A DNA stretch of 19,848 bases from Lachnospiraceae bacterium (lineage in GTDB: Bacteria > Bacillota > Clostridia > Lachnospirales > Lachnospiraceae): the NCBI GenBank assembly GCA_024694785.1, contig JAILJL010000106.1:1-19848 (forward strand), read 5' to 3'. Below, piece by piece: positions 1-12,803 of this stretch. The notes below the pieces were generated by a model. It did not search any database, had not been told where the DNA came from, and worked only from the letters and a program-made list of their open reading frames with translations. The position numbers and the translations under genes were made by a program. Positions within the stretch are counted from its first letter, which is position 1. The number at the start of each line of letters is the position of its first letter.

Positions 1-1
1 T

Positions 2-952
2 AAGGTGTTTTGTGATATAATAAAAACTGGCGTAATTAATAATCAGGATAAAAGAATACTAAAGTTTTGTGTCTCGGACTTTAGTGAAATAATAACAGAG
101 GCGACTGCGAGAGGAAAAGATGATGTAGAGGCAATTTTTCAGTATGATGCGGAAACTAAATGCATTATACCAGAAATGATTAGCATGACGGTAGGAAGAT
201 TCCTCGGCAGATATGGAAGGTTTTTCCCGGAATACAGAGATATCATTTATAAGGAAATTAACGATGAAAATAGTGTGCAAGTTAATATAGAGATGAATGG
301 GGAAAAGGACAATCTTTCTTATGATAACAATTATTGTAAAGCGAGATTGATATTATATGATATTGATCAAGCCACAATAGATAAATCAGAACAAATCTAT
401 ACATTAGAGGATATTTTTATAGAGAATAAAGAAGGTGAAATAGGCTTATATACACGAGATGGTAAGAAAATAGAAATAAATTGTGCATCAACATTGTCTC
501 CATCAAAATCAAAAATATACCGTCTTTTTTCATACTTGACCAATTTGGATTATTTACGAAGCCCTTTAGGCGGATTTGCCAAAAGTAGACTTGAACTGGA
601 TTTGGATTATCAGCCAAGGATTATAATCAATAATTTGCTGATAAGTCGTGAGAGAATAAGAATAGATAATTCCGAAATAGAAAAACTGAGAAGAATAAAG
701 AATGATGCGATAGAGTTGTTCCGATGGGCTGCACAAAAAAGAGTTCCTCCTGAGTTTTATGTTTATACTGATATGGACATTAAGCCAAGGTATTGTCGAT
801 TGGGGACGCAATATGATAATGCAAGCTTCTTTGCATTAATTAGCAATAGTAAACGCTATTTTTATATTGAGGAAGTTTATCCAAATCGTAATTCAAATAG
901 TGATATTAGCCCGTACAATATGGAGGTGCTTTGTAATTTATGTCTGAAATAA
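2..952 (+). CDS. LanB-type lantibiotic dehydratase family protein, C-terminal part (5' end outside window)
   Basis: The frame is open to the left edge, so the GTG at 5 is probably not the true start. Family enzymes transfer glutamate from glutamyl-tRNA to Ser/Thr of a precursor peptide, or in the PEARL branch add an amino acid to a peptide C-terminus. Counting from the codon at 5, I see the family pattern GRYGRF (68-73), an NLSYDNNY stretch (103-110), the YQPRI...LLISRERIRI block (202-220) that matches the 'PRI-g-vvisR-W-i' signature, and near the end FRWAAQKRVPPEFYVY (239-254) followed by FYIEEVYPN (286-294), like the 'W...lP..v.v' and 'l.E..p' blocks closing the glutamylation domain. The protein stops about 20 residues later, so no SpaB_C elimination domain is attached. 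The catalytic N-terminal half is not visible. Its last 13 bases overlap the next gene. Base use is AT-rich. The family call is fairly firm; dehydratase versus PEARL is open. Confidence 0.72.
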   Translation, partial: KVFCDIIKTGVINNQDKRILKFCVSDFSEIITEATARGKDDVEAIFQYDAETKCIIPEMISMTVGRFLGRYGRFFPEYRDIIYKEINDENSVQVNIEMNGEKDNLSYDNNYCKARLILYDIDQATIDKSEQIYTLEDIFIENKEGEIGLYTRDGKKIEINCASTLSPSKSKIYRLFSYLTNLDYLRSPLGGFAKSRLELDLDYQPRIIINNLLISRERIRIDNSEIEKLRRIKNDAIELFRWAAQKRVPPEFYVYTDMDIKPRYCRLGTQYDNASFFALISNSKRYFYIEEVYPNRNSNSDISPYNMEVLCNLCLK

Positions 953-2328
953 ATATTTATATGCCAGATATGTATGAATGCGGATTTAGCCCGTTAAAAT
1001 ACAAAAGTCAATTTGATCTATGGGGCATGGCGGCTTTATATCAAGGAATATGTATGTATGACGAATCGTTAAATCTAAGGAATCGTCTGGCTGAGTATGT
1101 ATTGGAAAAGGACGGATGCTTAGAAGTTAAATTAAAGAACCTTCTATGGCATGACGGAATGCCTATCAGTGCAGAGGATTTTATAGAGTCGTTTAAATTG
1201 TATTTTCCGAATAAAAAAACGGGAAGAATTCCTAATGGGATAGTATCTGAAATAATAGGCGCGGAAGAATACTATAATGGCAATAATGAACTTAAGGGGA
1301 TTGAGATTGTAGATAACCGTATATTTAGGATTAATCATGTTGCACAGAATTTATATATCAAAAATTTGCTGGTTCATCCGCTTATTCCGCGTCATACGAT
1401 GGGAATAGAGGATAATAGATATATTGGGTCTGGGGCATATATTCTGAAGAACTATGGCGAAAATTATGCTTATTTTGAACGTAATGATGGCTTTTGCTTA
1501 GGAACGCCTCGAATTAGGAAATTAAATTTGTATGGAGGAACAAAAGAGGAACAAATTCACCTTCTTGAGGAAAAAGAATTAACACTTACAATAATTGAGC
1601 CGGAAGACCTGAAGAATATTTCTGCTTCATTATTTGAGAATTATTATTTGTTTTCTTTACCGCAACCTATTACAACGGTATTAAAGATAAATCCAAAGTC
1701 GCCTATGTTTATGGATTTGAATATGAGAATGTCTGTCAGTCAAGCTATTAAAAGAGGGTTACTGGTGTATACCATGTTTAAAGATTATGCAGAGGCTACT
1801 TGGAGTTTTTATCCACCGATAATAGCAGAAAAGTATAATTGCAGGACTTTATACTTGGATATGGGATTAAAAGAAAGTATGCCTGAAAGAATAGTTATTG
1901 GAGTTTTATATAATTCAAGCGAGCATATAAAGCTTGCGGAGTTATTGAGTGAGGACTTAAAAGCTAAAACGGATGTGGTTATAATGCCAAGCGCTTCGCG
2001 AAGAGAAGCATTTGCAAAAGGAGCAGATGTATATATTGAGAATATGATGCATACTATTCTTCCGATATCGAATCAACTATTATATTGCAATTCGGAATTG
2101 TTTATAAAATCGGTACATTATAAGCGGCTAATAGAAATTGAAAAAAGTCTATATTTACAAAATAGCCAAGCACTTATTCGCGAATTTGCGATGGAGTGTG
2201 CAAGGTCTTTACCTGTTATTCCTATATATAGTAAGCACGAATTACAGTTGGTATCTAAGCGAGTTCATAATTTGAAACCGGATACACGGGGTGCATTATG
2301 GAATATACATGAAATAGAATTGGATTAG
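940..2328 (+). CDS. Leaderless SBP_bac_5 (OppA-like) solute-binding-domain protein
   Basis: A 462-residue protein resembling the extracellular peptide-binding subunit of oligopeptide ABC importers (SBP family 5). Supporting blocks are LWHDGMPISAEDFIESF (69-85), matching 'W-dG-p-tA-eDv--s', then VDNRIFRIN (124-132), LIPRHT (148-153), and YIGSGAYILKNY (161-172), matching the 'pvGTGPY-l' block. The N-terminus (MSEINIYMPDMYECGF) has neither a hydrophobic signal sequence nor a lipobox cysteine, so the protein probably stays in the cytoplasm. The ATG at 940 is the first in frame after a stop at 934. It overlaps the LanB-type gene by 13 bases and has GGAGGT at 922-927, an unusually long 12-base spacing, which suggests coupled translation. 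The ABC transporter gene follows after 9 bases. I infer a role in binding a peptide precursor or product, or in regulation as in SgrR. An importer role would need a permease that is not here. Confidence 0.7.
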   Translation: MSEINIYMPDMYECGFSPLKYKSQFDLWGMAALYQGICMYDESLNLRNRLAEYVLEKDGCLEVKLKNLLWHDGMPISAEDFIESFKLYFPNKKTGRIPNGIVSEIIGAEEYYNGNNELKGIEIVDNRIFRINHVAQNLYIKNLLVHPLIPRHTMGIEDNRYIGSGAYILKNYGENYAYFERNDGFCLGTPRIRKLNLYGGTKEEQIHLLEEKELTLTIIEPEDLKNISASLFENYYLFSLPQPITTVLKINPKSPMFMDLNMRMSVSQAIKRGLLVYTMFKDYAEATWSFYPPIIAEKYNCRTLYLDMGLKESMPERIVIGVLYNSSEHIKLAELLSEDLKAKTDVVIMPSASRREAFAKGADVYIENMMHTILPISNQLLYCNSELFIKSVHYKRLIEIEKSLYLQNSQALIREFAMECARSLPVIPIYSKHELQLVSKRVHNLKPDTRGALWNIHEIELD

Positions 2329-2337
2329 GAGAAAGAT

Positions 2338-3921
2338 ATGTATAGCTACTTGGTTAAGAATAAAGTATTGTTCTTTGCAGAAGTCATTATGGCAATAGGA
2401 CACGCATTGTTTGATGCAGCATTAGCCGTATCAATGGGACAAATGACAAATGCTGCAGTTGATGGCGAGTTAAAAGTATTACTATATTCATCAATGCAAA
2501 GCGTAGGATGTCTTATTGTAATCTACTTTTTTTCGGTTTTTGAAATGCGTTTTCGCAAAAAGCTGACAGGTAAGTGTCTATGTGCCATTAAAGAAGATAT
2601 ATATAAGGCAATATCTAAAAAGGGAGTAGCTTCAATGCACGAAAAGGCTGATTCCTTTTACATTAATCTTCTTCAGGGCGATATGGAGTTATTGGAAAGA
2701 GATTGCTTTGATTCATTGCTACGTGGAATCAATTTAACGATTCAAACGGTTTTTTGTGTAATTGCATTGAACTTTATAAGTGTTAAGTTGGTTATAATAT
2801 TCACGTTGTTATGTGTTTTCCCTCAATTAGCTTCACGTTTCTTTAGAAAAGCCCTGACTAAAAGAAAAGACGCTTTTTCTCTTCAAAATTCACGTTGCGT
2901 TCAGGCTGAAAAAGAATATATCGGTGGATTCGACACAATAGCATATTATTCTAAGTGGGAAGCTTTTATCTCCCGTTTGATGATAGAGGATAAGGCTTTG
3001 GAAGATTGTAGACGAAAGAGGGACGTCTGTCAGGTAAAGGTATCTTATGGAGTAACAACAATCAATATGATTGCTCAAATGTTATGCATGGCAGCAGCAG
3101 CATATTTTGTGGCAATCGGCGAGTTAAAGTTTGGCGCGCTTACAGCATCAACGCAGTTACTTAATTTTATATTCTCTCCATTAAATACAGTTATAAATTG
3201 TGTGTTGTCGATGCTTTCTACGCGAGGAGTTCGCGATAAAGTTGCACAGATTGTTGATTTTTCATCGGGAAACGGCAAAGAACGGTTTTCTTTAGGAGAT
3301 ATATCATTTTCGAATGTAACGGTAGGATATGGTGATAAGGCAGTTTTATGTGACTTTAGTTATATATTTACCAAAGGCGGAAAATATGCTATTATCGGTA
3401 GCTCCGGAGTGGGTAAAAGTACAATAGTAAAGGCACTAATGAGAACGGCAAGAGTTAATAAAGGTAGTATAACTATTGGAAATACTAATATAAAGGATAT
3501 TGCGCTTTCGGAATTATATAAAAATATACTATATGTACCACAAAAACCATATCTTTTCGAGGGAACTGTGCTGGAAAACATTAGTTTTTACGGTGACGAG
3601 GGAGCCGCAAGAAATGCAGCACGTGCAGCGGCTTTGCCGGATGAACTATTAATTCAACAAGCGGGAGGCGATTACGGTAATAAAATCTCCGGTGGGGAAA
3701 TGAGCCGTATTTCAGTGGCCAGAGCTTTTTGTTCAAATGCTTCGGTAATAATATTTGATGAACCGACAAGCGGCTTGGATCCGGAGACTGCAGAGGAGAT
3801 AGAAAAGAGAATATTGGATATAAAAGATAAGACAATTATAGTAATAACGCATAACTGGAATCAAACATATCTTGATATGTTTGATAAAGTAATAAATGTA
3901 ACAAACGGAGAACCGGCATAA
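2338..3921 (+). CDS. ABC transporter, fused permease and ATPase (exporter type)
   Basis: A 527-residue half-transporter that should act as a homodimer in the inner membrane. The first ~290 residues hold several hydrophobic segments (around 10-35, 50-68, 132-165, 240-290), as in type IV exporters. The ATPase follows: Walker A GSSGVGKS (354-361), Q-loop YVPQKPYLFEGTVLENISFY, signature SGGEMSRISVARAF (from 451), Walker B VIIFDEP with D474 and E475, D-loop SGLDPE and switch histidine H505 in ITHNW. All catalytic residues are present, so it should hydrolyse ATP. It is slightly shorter than typical ~580-residue exporters and has no peptidase C39 domain, so it would not itself cleave a leader. AGGAG at 2327-2331 sits 6 bases before the ATG and overlaps the stop of the preceding gene. 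Context suggests export of, or immunity to, the peptide product of the LanB-type locus. The ABC call is firm; the substrate is inferred. Confidence 0.9.
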   Translation: MYSYLVKNKVLFFAEVIMAIGHALFDAALAVSMGQMTNAAVDGELKVLLYSSMQSVGCLIVIYFFSVFEMRFRKKLTGKCLCAIKEDIYKAISKKGVASMHEKADSFYINLLQGDMELLERDCFDSLLRGINLTIQTVFCVIALNFISVKLVIIFTLLCVFPQLASRFFRKALTKRKDAFSLQNSRCVQAEKEYIGGFDTIAYYSKWEAFISRLMIEDKALEDCRRKRDVCQVKVSYGVTTINMIAQMLCMAAAAYFVAIGELKFGALTASTQLLNFIFSPLNTVINCVLSMLSTRGVRDKVAQIVDFSSGNGKERFSLGDISFSNVTVGYGDKAVLCDFSYIFTKGGKYAIIGSSGVGKSTIVKALMRTARVNKGSITIGNTNIKDIALSELYKNILYVPQKPYLFEGTVLENISFYGDEGAARNAARAAALPDELLIQQAGGDYGNKISGGEMSRISVARAFCSNASVIIFDEPTSGLDPETAEEIEKRILDIKDKTIIVITHNWNQTYLDMFDKVINVTNGEPA

Positions 3922-3940
3922 GAATAGTTAGATAGATTAA

Positions 3941-4022
3941 GGTTTGAACCTGCGGTCTCGCCTTCGGCTCAGACCCTCTGCGCTCTAACGGTGCATTAGT
4001 GACACTAGAAGTAGCAGGTTCA
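3941..4022. other. tRNA-like inverted-repeat element, possible tRNA remnant or island border
   Basis: A structured, more GC-rich patch follows the AT-rich operon. A perfect 9-bp inverted repeat (TGAACCTGC at 3945-3953, GCAGGTTCA at 4014-4022) encloses a hairpin GGTCT/AGACC (3954-3958 with 3971-3975, with an inner GCC/GGC), a second helix TGCGC/GTGCA (3979-3983 with 3991-3995, 7-base loop) and TAGTG/CACTA (3997-4007). Read on the minus strand it contains GGTTCAAACC, like a T-loop, and TTAGAGCGC, like the end of a D-arm. No complete cloverleaf with acceptor stem and 7-base anticodon loop can be folded, so I do not call a tRNA gene. It may be a degraded tRNA, an attachment-site remnant, or a small structured RNA element. 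Confidence 0.4.
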
Positions 4023-4023
4023 T

Positions 4024-4060
4024 ATTAAAAGCTCCACACTTAAAATGTGGAGCTTTTAAT
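4024..4060. terminator. Bidirectional intrinsic terminator between the ABC operon and the esterase pseudogene
   Basis: A perfect 15-bp stem (4024-4038 with 4046-4060) has a 7-base loop. Its base is AATTAAAA/TTTTAAT-type, giving a T run on either strand. It lies between two converging transcription units and can end both. Confidence 0.88.
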
Positions 4061-4061
4061 A

Positions 4062-5347
4062 TTACTGTGCGTTCTGATATTCATCAATAACAAGATATGC
4101 GCCCATATTAGGGTCTTCTATCATTTCAATCTTGGTATCAAGCTTTAATACTTTATACAATCCGTTACCAACAGGATCCCAACTTGGAAGTCCAGTGCCT
4201 TTAGGATTGCCGGTCTTAACAAAATTCACAACATACTGTTGCATTATATCCGAAAGCTTAAAATCTTCTTCATCATATAAAAATCCGTGTCTCCACAGAT
4301 TGCCATATAGATAAGGCATCTCACCCGCATGATAATTGGAAAGTGACTTATTGGTCTTCGTAAAGCAATACTCATATGTCGGACGACCCTGCGATACCAT
4401 GAATCTATTCCATACAAAATGCGAATATGAGAACCACAATGCGGAATACGCTGTATTCAAGGCTCCCTTTGCATCTCCGAGCTTATCTATAACAAAGTGC
4501 TGGTCACGCTGTGGGGTATCCACAGGAACCACCTTCGCGAGCTTTTCTGCATAATCTCCTACTGCCGCAGACAATAGCTTGATATAATTATCTGCTGTTG
4601 CTTCATAAGCCATCATGAATACGTCTGCTTCTTTTGCGTTATACCCGTTTAAAAGCGCTTTCTCGTGATTCATTCCCTTTTCATATGTAATATATGGCAT
4701 TTCCGCTATGGCATACCCATCAACAGTCATCGATGAATGTGTTGTTTTGGTCTTAAGCAATTTCTCTGCCGGAATATCTCTAAGAGCTGCCGATGAAGTT
4801 ACGTTGAATTCTTCTCGCATTTTGTTGCCCGTTTCTATTGCTTCTTCATATGCATAAGCGAATCCATAAAAGGTGCCGTCCTTGTCTGCATCGCCATGGG
4901 TCCGAACTTATCGCATTTTTTAACGCCTTCCCATCCGCTATGCTTCTGTGGTTCCTTGAAGCGCAACTCTCCGACCGGCGCTTCTGCATATGGGATTCCG
5001 GCGTATACGCGAACCGTCTTGTCTTCGTTATATACACCGGTTAACTCTCCCTGCGTAATTTGAATCACTTCCGTTATTTCCGGATTCTTATTGTCTACTG
5101 CAGGAAGCCTCTTTAAAGGTGGTGCGGTAACAATATAATTTACGACTATTAGAACAAGAAAGCCTGCCCACAAGGCAAATCCGTATCGCTTTGCGTAAAC
5201 ACCGTGTCTGACAAGCTCGTGTCGTCCGATAATTGCTGCTGCACATAATACGCAGGCAATTATCCACCCTACTATCGTATTCTTTGACAGTTCCAATACG
5301 ACAAGGTAAAACAAAGTGACAACTACCATTAAAACACTGAATATCAT
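4062..5347 (-). pseudogene. Type B carboxylesterase, inactivated by internal deletion and frame change
   Basis: The 5' part (5347-4835, 170 residues) starts at an ATG with AGAAGGAGAG just upstream. It encodes about three membrane segments (near 2-20, 26-42, 58-74), then the esterase N-terminal block with VRVYAGIPYAEAPVGELRF and a 'GPMAMQ' stretch, and stops at 4835-4837. The 3' part continues in another frame. It is readable from about 4900 as ...AYAYEEAIETGNKM and then to 4062, with ALRDIPAEKLL, a VDG block, an NAKEADVF block where the family has its acidic triad residue, and YHAGEMPYLYGNLW with the catalytic His. The roughly 150 residues between these parts in intact relatives (SEDCL, HGGG oxyanion loop, GESAG nucleophile) are missing. 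The nucleophile serine is therefore lost as well as the frame, so a single sequencing error cannot explain it. An intact parent would have been a membrane-anchored ester hydrolase. The 252-residue frame from 4820 is unlikely to be functional. Confidence 0.83.
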
Positions 5348-11343: not shown

Positions 11344-12192
11344 CTATAGATATCTCTTAAGCTCCGGCATATATTCGCCAAAGAATATTTCGTCTTTTAG
11401 AAGAGTATCGATTACCGGATCGAATACCTCGTCAATTACCTTAATTATCTCTTCGTATATCGGCTCTTTTCTCTTTCCGAGCGACAGAAAAGCTCGATAC
11501 TTTGTCTTTGACGACTTACTTGCCAGGGCGCTTTTCATATTATGATAACGTTCCTCCGTAAGTATCAGTCCGCGGTTCACCAGTTCGTCATTTATCGATA
11601 CCATAAGCTTTCTTCCGGAAAAGGTTCTCTTGGTTCCATAACTATATAAGTTATAAAGTATCGACATATCCGACAGGAATTCCTGCTTGTCATAAAGTAT
11701 CGCAAAGTAATTTGCTATTTCTTTCTCAGGATAAAGTGCTGTTATATTAAGAACTCTGTCGTTCTCATAAGAAAGGCGGAAGGTTATGTCCTCTAAGTCA
11801 TTCTTCTCGTCTTTTAACGGGAAAAGATATAGATTCACCGGAATCGTCACCTTATCAAAGGGAATGCTTAACCTTACCTTGGCACCGTCTTCGAATTCCT
11901 CTATAACTGCTTTCTCTTCGCCATCCTCAACAAGCATAGCGATCATGGCGGTCAGATACATTCCGTCTACGCCCTTTTCTTTGACGCGCACGTACACATC
12001 CTTGGTATTGGATGTTCTGTAGCTGTCGATTCCATACTCCCCCGTCTTCATAAGGGCCACTTTATAATTCTCCGGAAGCGCAAACAACCGCTCGACTACC
12101 TGCTCCCTTGCTACTCCCTGCAACAGATTCCGGTACGGGATCTTAAGGTCGCGGCTCTTTTTCAATATAAGCCTGGTGCTTACCTTCGTCAT
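11344..12192 (-). CDS. abiEii: AbiEii-like toxin component (DUF1814 nucleotidyltransferase family), degenerate active site
   Basis: A 282-residue protein placed as the toxin of an AbiE-type (type IV) toxin-antitoxin pair. The layout fits: RNLLQGVAREQVVERLFAL (21-39) matches the helix before the nucleotidyltransferase core, ALMKTGEYGIDSYRTSNTKDVYV (46-68) aligns with the 'LKGG-aL...yR-T-DiD' active-site block, and YPEKEIANYFAILYDKQEFLSDMSILYNLY (154-183) aligns with 'YP-E-iA-Kl-Ai...KDfyDly'. Key residues differ: KGG is KTG, DID is KDVYV, and KD-yD is SDMSILYN. Catalysis may be lost or changed. The start at 12192 gives a TAATG overlap with abiEi, indicating coupling; an alternative ATG at 12222 overlaps by 31 bases. 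The gene stops 19 bases before the kinase gene. The pair organisation is convincing; toxin activity is uncertain. Confidence 0.62.
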   Translation of the reverse strand: MTKVSTRLILKKSRDLKIPYRNLLQGVAREQVVERLFALPENYKVALMKTGEYGIDSYRTSNTKDVYVRVKEKGVDGMYLTAMIAMLVEDGEEKAVIEEFEDGAKVRLSIPFDKVTIPVNLYLFPLKDEKNDLEDITFRLSYENDRVLNITALYPEKEIANYFAILYDKQEFLSDMSILYNLYSYGTKRTFSGRKLMVSINDELVNRGLILTEERYHNMKSALASKSSKTKYRAFLSLGKRKEPIYEEIIKVIDEVFDPVIDTLLKDEIFFGEYMPELKRYL

Positions 12193-12803
12193 TACAGCCA
12201 CACTCCCAACATGGTCTCGCACTTCCTTAGAACCTTACGCTCTTTTGCGTATTTAATGAGATTCTCCACATTCTTCTTATCATCTACAATATAATTTGCA
12301 AGCGCCGACTTAAGTTCTTCTCGGTCAAGCTTCTTCTCGTATTTGATAATGTCTGCCATAAGACGATCTCTGTCATATATCTTAAATGACTGCCCGCTTA
12401 TTGTAATGGATGTGGTTCCCATTCTTAATACTTCCTTCTCGGTGTAATATGGGACAACGACAGGATAATCCATCATGAATCTCGACTTGGATGTATTCTT
12501 GTCTATGGCGATATGCCAGCAAAACGGCTTCTCTTTAAGGTATCCGTAAGCATAAAGCGCACTCTGCATACATAGTACACCATCAGGGAAGAGCGCTGCT
12601 ATTATCTCCTCTTCGGAATGATCCTCGTCTTTAATGGTATAGTATCCATTCTTGATTCTTGTTAAGAATTCACTTTTGACAAGCTGATCCAAAAGATAAT
12701 ACGTAAGTCCGCAGTCGTCATACAGATCGGCTGTCTTCATGACTCCGCTGTGCTTTTTCATCTCTTCTTTTATCTTTATTCTGGTACTGTCGAGATTTTC
12801 CAT
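12192..12803 (-). CDS. abiEi: AbiEi-like antitoxin / winged-helix regulator
   Basis: A 203-residue protein of the AbiEi antitoxin family. In characterised pairs AbiEi neutralises the AbiEii toxin and represses its own promoter. The N-terminal winged helix spans about residues 5-58: GVMKTADLYDDCGLTYYLLDQLV, then FLTRIKNGYYTI as the wing ending in the 'L-rI-rG-Y' motif. The C-terminal domain has the expected FPDGVLCMQSALYAYGYL block (71-88), IYDRDRLMADIIKYEKKL, where AbiEi proteins have 'y--eRtl-D', and a final LIKYAKERKVLRKCETMLGVWL. The ATG has GGAG 8 bases upstream, and a promoter fits at 12838-12867. It is the first gene of the pair, as in known abiE operons. Confidence 0.78.
   Translation of the reverse strand: MENLDSTRIKIKEEMKKHSGVMKTADLYDDCGLTYYLLDQLVKSEFLTRIKNGYYTIKDEDHSEEEIIAALFPDGVLCMQSALYAYGYLKEKPFCWHIAIDKNTSKSRFMMDYPVVVPYYTEKEVLRMGTTSITISGQSFKIYDRDRLMADIIKYEKKLDREELKSALANYIVDDKKNVENLIKYAKERKVLRKCETMLGVWL

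Follow-up and report, generated by a model that had tools for sequence, protein, structure and literature searches.

Split LanBs, in the passages of PMC11117183 that deal with them, load glutamate onto the Ser and Thr residues of a precursor peptide, and a separate enzyme eliminates the glutamate. The peptide aminoacyl-tRNA ligases (PEARLs), such as TglB, BhaBC and AmmB, likewise have a glutamylation domain without an elimination domain (parts of PMC11117183 and PMC11962472). The same passages of PMC11117183 tell the two groups apart by their residues: those matching Arg743, Phe783 and Glu851 of TbtB are kept in both, while Asp542 and Arg803 (TglB numbering), which are tied to the ATP-dependent step of PEARLs, occur in PEARLs only and correspond to Tyr and Leu in split LanBs. 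In the nisin system, as covered in part of PMC8546558, a dehydratase-type enzyme and an exporter come together in the NisB-NisT-NisC complex, whose soluble third protein is a LanC cyclase. Here, three adjacent genes are described that open a 19,848-nucleotide contig of a Lachnospiraceae bacterium (JAILJL010000106.1, assembly GCA_024694785.1; this whole contig is called the window). They are predicted to encode the end of a divergent split-type LanB, a leaderless solute-binding protein (SBP) and an ABC exporter; enzyme and exporter are again found together, here from the genes alone, and in place of the LanC cyclase there is a binding protein. The three genes are read, tentatively and with slightly less than even confidence, as the 3′ end of an operon for a ribosomally synthesised and post-translationally modified peptide (RiPP), in which the split LanB modifies a precursor, the SBP clamps the peptide and the exporter releases the product.

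The LanB-type enzyme

The first gene is open at the contig start, and what it encodes is, on sequence grounds, the last 316 residues of a divergent LanB of the split type, made of the tRNA-dependent domain only. The fragment itself matches positions 428-629 of the 649 positions of Lant_dehydr_N at 23.7 bits, under the Pfam cut-off of 28. Its relatives give clearer matches: P0008, which is 60% identical to the fragment, reaches 33.1 bits, over the cut-off; six of the nine aligned LanB family members match at E ≤ 0.01 (best 8.9e-22); and the predicted model of the relative P0010 (52% identical) shows a LanB fold, matching TbtB. The fragment shares R216, K261-P262-x-Y264 and E308 with both P0008 and P0009, and these correspond to kept LanB residues. 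The gene ends about 60 residues past the Lant_dehydr_N match, and the chain holds no C-terminal elimination domain; this is the layout of a split LanB of the TbtB type and not that of a canonical fused LanB, for which the enzyme of locus L037, matching both PF04738 and PF14028, served as a yardstick. The initial annotation had described the fragment as a LanB-type C-terminus. The LanB part of that description stands, and what the fragment ends is the N-terminal tRNA-dependent domain, not the SpaB_C elimination part.

The family is distant from the described enzymes. Compared with TbtB and GodF, split LanBs that carry out glutamylation in thiomuracin and goadsporin biosynthesis, its closest full-length members are shorter (about 740 residues against 800-870) and about 14% identical, which is also the level of identity to solved LanB structures. 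A TPS-x-x-W sequence replaces the [ST]PF-type motif, a Lys takes the place of Arg six positions ahead of the Thr, and the downstream gene encodes an SBP, not an elimination enzyme. Among solved structures, the LanB profile search found none at 0.01 and single-protein searches gave chance-level matches only; an alignment with MibB (E 0.29) was used for the TP motif only. P0010, P0011, P0012 and P0014 matched no NCBIfam model, which is no sign of novelty because two yardstick LanBs, from loci L036 and L041, were also unmatched.

The residues that distinguish split LanBs from PEARLs were assigned by a MAFFT alignment of 12 sequences, six longer relatives and six LanBs from other loci, with neither a characterised PEARL nor TbtB among the rows. 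R642 and the terminal Glu (E734 of P0010) are kept in 12/12 and KPx[YF] in 11/12 of the aligned LanBs, and the window fragment ends in E308-V-L, the same E-V-L ending as its relatives. Two residues past the terminal Glu, the relatives have L, L, L, W, W and M and the others L, L, L, T, I and V; Arg never occurs there. The place of Asp542, assigned to V471, is held by V, L, V, V, I and V in the six relatives and by Y or F in the other LanBs. Because the adenosine-site Arg, aromatic residue and Glu are kept and the PEARL-only Asp and Arg are lacking in this alignment, the residues point to a glutamylation-type enzyme of the split-LanB kind rather than to a PEARL. E469 had been a first guess for the PEARL Asp; MAFFT puts V471 at that place and E469 two places away, an assignment taken as provisional.

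These residues bear on the possibility of a pearlin pathway, in which the enzyme would be a PEARL-type LanB, the SBP would hold the scaffold or the freed small product and the exporter would secrete the product. A LanB-type domain lacking the elimination domain would suit a PEARL, and E469 is acidic in 9/9 aligned LanB family members, two residues from the assigned position of the PEARL Asp. However, both PEARL-only residues are missing from the family, as far as an alignment without a characterised PEARL can assign them, and a pearlin pathway appears distinctly unlikely.

The leaderless binding protein

Binding proteins of peptide importers normally act outside the membrane. The product of the second gene matches SBP_bac_5 at 83.7 bits, over the Pfam cut-off, and its fold matches to OppA/DppA-type proteins span most of the chain, although in a low-confidence model (pLDDT, the predicted local distance difference test score, of 58.9; root-mean-square deviations mostly 10-14). 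Sequence and fold, two-lobed, are thus shared with SBPs of the OppA/AppA/DppA type, but the N-terminus and the phylogenetic position are not. A lipobox was found by pattern search in 21/22 ordinary SBP relatives, and the sole one without it, L011, sits at a contig start. None of the six members of the family (461-468 aa) has a strongly hydrophobic N-terminus, and alignment and hydropathy, with no signal-peptide predictor run, indicate no hydrophobic N-terminus in any of them; the first strand of the model lies at residues 3-7, and the family members start there. The six form one clade with 100/100 support, separated from the 22 ordinary SBPs by a stem of 2.02 changes per column, and the alignment of the six has 116 invariant columns. 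The protein is therefore probably a leaderless, cytosolic SBP_bac_5-fold protein; by hydropathy and pattern search it bears neither the signal peptide nor the lipobox of an extracytoplasmic ABC importer component, and no importer permease occurs among the window genes as read. The SBP_bac_5 likeness and the missing signal peptide had both been anticipated from the initial annotation, and the latter now appears as a conserved trait of the family. The methanobactin binding protein 5icq, periplasmic by its entry title, differs in the same respect. A change of the amino-end-binding Asp of OppA to an invariant His (H371) was considered and dropped, as ordinary relatives are also without Asp at that position.

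SBP domains in the cytosol are familiar from SgrR-type proteins, in which they serve as sensors behind an N-terminal DNA-binding domain. This precedent, together with the adjoining exporter gene, would suit an SBP that acts as a self-protection or sensing device, sequestering the mature product in the cytosol or reporting its level while the exporter removes it. The SgrR layout is not found, however: the SBP fold begins at residue 3, with no added DNA-binding domain. Sequestration alone is untouched by this result; the self-protection or sensing role as a whole is considered unlikely.

Many of the nearest named relatives of the SBP are oligopeptide binders, so a peptide ligand is favoured; nickel and sugar binders are also listed. 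This argues against a pathway outside RiPP biosynthesis, in which the LanB would use a small molecule or a protein as the acceptor of its amino acid and the SBP and exporter would serve that product. According to part of PMC11212132, clusters for non-ribosomal peptide synthetases or polyketide synthases also contain enzymes with a lantibiotic-dehydratase annotation, and no precursor is seen on this contig, which starts inside the LanB gene. A pathway of this sort is regarded as quite improbable.

Association of the LanB and SBP genes

The co-occurrence of the two genes outside the window was examined for the relatives of both by comparing the listed lengths of their longest contigs. The SBP P0005 and the LanB P0011 each have a single listed contig, and because both contigs are of 56,627 bases the two genes very probably share one contig. 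Two of the six SBP clusters (that of the window and, through this match, that of P0005) are therefore linked to a LanB, one is apparently not, and P0002, P0004 and P0006 allow no decision.

Several observations weigh against the proposed RiPP operon. For the SBP P0003 the longest contig measures 89,576 bases, and the listed LanB relatives of 254-807 aa include none for it; among the LanBs listed, only the Bacillus cluster of P0014 could share that contig, and a LanB relative of this size seems to be absent from it. The contig of P0014, a distant LanB from Bacillus mobilis, is given as 115,873, and none of the SBP clusters has a listed contig that long. In six other LanB loci (L036-L041, 5 to 19 kb each; two from genomes of the same bacterial family and four from plasmids, L038-L041), a hidden Markov model search that recovered the window's own gene found no open reading frame (ORF) belonging to the SBP family at E ≤ 10. 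In addition, the SBP model is poor, the LanB structural model was made for P0010 and not for the window fragment, and a precursor, elimination enzyme, LanC, protease and regulator are not visible because the contig begins within the LanB gene. The expectation that LanB and SBP co-occur is thus probably borne out on one further contig, and it does not hold as a strict pairing, given P0003. Since the six other LanB loci have no ORF of the SBP family, the pairing looks confined to this LanB subfamily.

The apparent separation of P0003 from any LanB, and a fold and family that are those of peptide-import SBPs, would also be expected of an ordinary importer protein that lost its signal peptide and stands here by chance. 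Against this, the trait is shared by 6/6 members of one long-stemmed clade with its many invariant columns, the gene overlaps that of the LanB, and the two probably recur on a second contig; a chance neighbour is very improbable.

Distribution

This bacterial operon is rare. Scans of all of genome_contigs and viral_contigs, with alignment A1 for the SBP and with A3 and A4 for the LanB, gave no confirmed relative. In overlapping whole-genome samples, a close SBP match was found in 1/299, 1/7, 1/392 and 1/97 genomes and a close LanB match in 1/397 and 1/398, in every case the genome of the window itself. Weaker SBP matches at E ≤ 1e-8 occurred in a further 3/7 and 124/392 genomes; none scored above 103.6 bits, whereas the protein itself scores 802.8. 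By these scores they are general SBP_bac_5 proteins; one short frame that was read (L004) is an importer-type SBP cut by the contig end, and 22 others were aligned. No LanB relative was found in plasmids or phages, and the window SBP has no plasmid match. P0003 matched 84 plasmid records at 1e-5, of which the best 8 of 84, at 22-28% identity, are annotated as substrate-binding proteins; it has no phage match. A literature search returned no paper uniting LanB, lanthipeptide or RiPP with binding-protein themes.

PF04738 occurs in 3/397 sampled genomes of the family, namely that of the window and those of L036 and L037. In L037 the fused LanB lies beside an ABC transporter. L036 (1-14757), from another genome of the family, has genes for an 864-aa split LanB, for YcaO (197 bits) and for a protein matching PF14028 (95 bits). 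The YcaO gene is followed by three ORFs that read as transposase-like, and it may itself be missing its end. On a Streptococcus salivarius plasmid (L041), an 843-aa LanB-like gene (1318-3849) adjoins a metallo-hydrolase of the M20/M25/M40 type, followed by a gene without a Pfam match; this LanB has no PEARL Arg in the alignment.

The exporter and the surroundings of the operon

The third gene is predicted to encode an ABC exporter in which a transmembrane domain and an ATPase domain are fused, in agreement with the initial annotation: ABC_membrane (residues 16-282, 37.1 bits) and ABC_tran (340-478, 89.5 bits) are both over their Pfam cut-offs, and Walker A (GSSGVGKS at 354), the signature (ISGGEMSR at 450) and Walker B (VIIFDE at 470) are intact. 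It is not a peptidase-containing bacteriocin exporter: no C39 domain occurs in its 527 aa, the transmembrane match beginning at residue 16, and there is no peptidase family among the 22 Pfam matches at E ≤ 1. Against NCBIfam, the best 25 of 200 matched models were all below their cut-offs.

Table 1. Features of the window and their coordinates
Feature	Position	Strand	Remarks
LanB-type ORF	2-952	+	316 aa; open at contig start
SBP_bac_5-like ORF	940-2328	+	462 aa; 13-base overlap with LanB ORF
ABC transporter ORF	2338-3921	+	527 aa; 9-base gap after SBP ORF
Compact structured element	3945-4022		9-pair closing stem and inner hairpins
Hairpin, 16 perfect pairs	4023-4061	.	fold of 3922-4062; between operon and convergent esterase remnant
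COesterase ORF	4062-4820	-	matches profile 255-501 of 515
COesterase ORF	4835-5347	-	matches profile 3-72 of 515
AbiEii-like ORF	11344-12222	-	PADLOC, 134 bits
AbiEi-like ORF	12192-12803	-	PADLOC, 200 bits; overlaps AbiEii-like ORF

The window is the whole of one contig (C111) of a 1.43-Mb genome in 214 contigs, which is 69% complete. The close spacing of the three genes on one strand, as first noted, is confirmed by their coordinates (Table 1), and their richness in AT is real: GC is 34.9% over 1-3921 against 41.8% from 4061 on, and windows of 3921 bases moved along that part in steps of 100 give 40.6 to 43.5%. Because the other genes of the contig mostly seem to be ordinary core genes, as read from their translations, and the GC there is higher, the trio may have been acquired. 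The contig start gave no convincing join to another contig of the same genome (best other match 83% over 36 bases). The genome has no match to PF14028 or PF05147, and none of the three operon genes matches PF14028; the PF14028 search of the genome matched no control genome either, so that its negative result shows little.

The 16-pair hairpin is probably a bidirectional terminator; the consensus terminator scan listed no site in 1-4200. The structured element at the border of the AT-rich operon has a tRNA-like outline and is possibly an attachment-site or tRNA remnant; it was not called as a tRNA, and no Rfam family reaches its gathering score there (13 matches, all far below). The two carboxylesterase ORFs beside the operon match both ends of the profile and miss its middle, and are probably a pseudogene with an internal deletion. 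Further along, the AbiEii/AbiEi pair, without a Pfam match at E ≤ 0.01, is by its PADLOC hits type IV toxin-antitoxin-like.

Proposed function

Taken as the tail of a RiPP system, as it was initially, the locus supplies the LanB, the leaderless SBP and the exporter; no precursor, elimination enzyme or other RiPP gene is seen in it. The split LanB would take glutamate, or a different amino acid, from an aminoacyl-tRNA and attach it to side chains of a ribosomal precursor encoded upstream, the two-lobed cleft of the cytosolic SBP would clamp the peptide as precursor, as intermediate or in finished form, and the ABC exporter would release the product. We infer a ribosomal peptide as the substrate, Glu-tRNA as the donor, a partner enzyme for elimination, and an SBP that would handle the peptide before it reaches the exporter. 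In L. paragasseri, the gene for elimination comes after that of the split LanB and overlaps it by 11 bases. Because the SBP fills this slot here, we think, from gene order and fold, that it may be a peptide-holding partner and that the exporter would release the product.

A bolder proposal, and a doubtful one, is that the locus represents a class of RiPP in which an oligopeptide-binding protein has moved inside the cell, where it would hold the LanB-modified precursor, protect or present it and deliver it to the peptidase-free exporter. If this is true, the carrier role would be the logic of peptide import run in reverse. If a conserved SBP family without a signal peptide is indeed coupled to an enzyme that modifies peptides in a tRNA-dependent way, RiPP biosynthesis would have a new part for handling peptides, and the pairing would draw attention to a divergent subfamily of LanBs that is unstudied.

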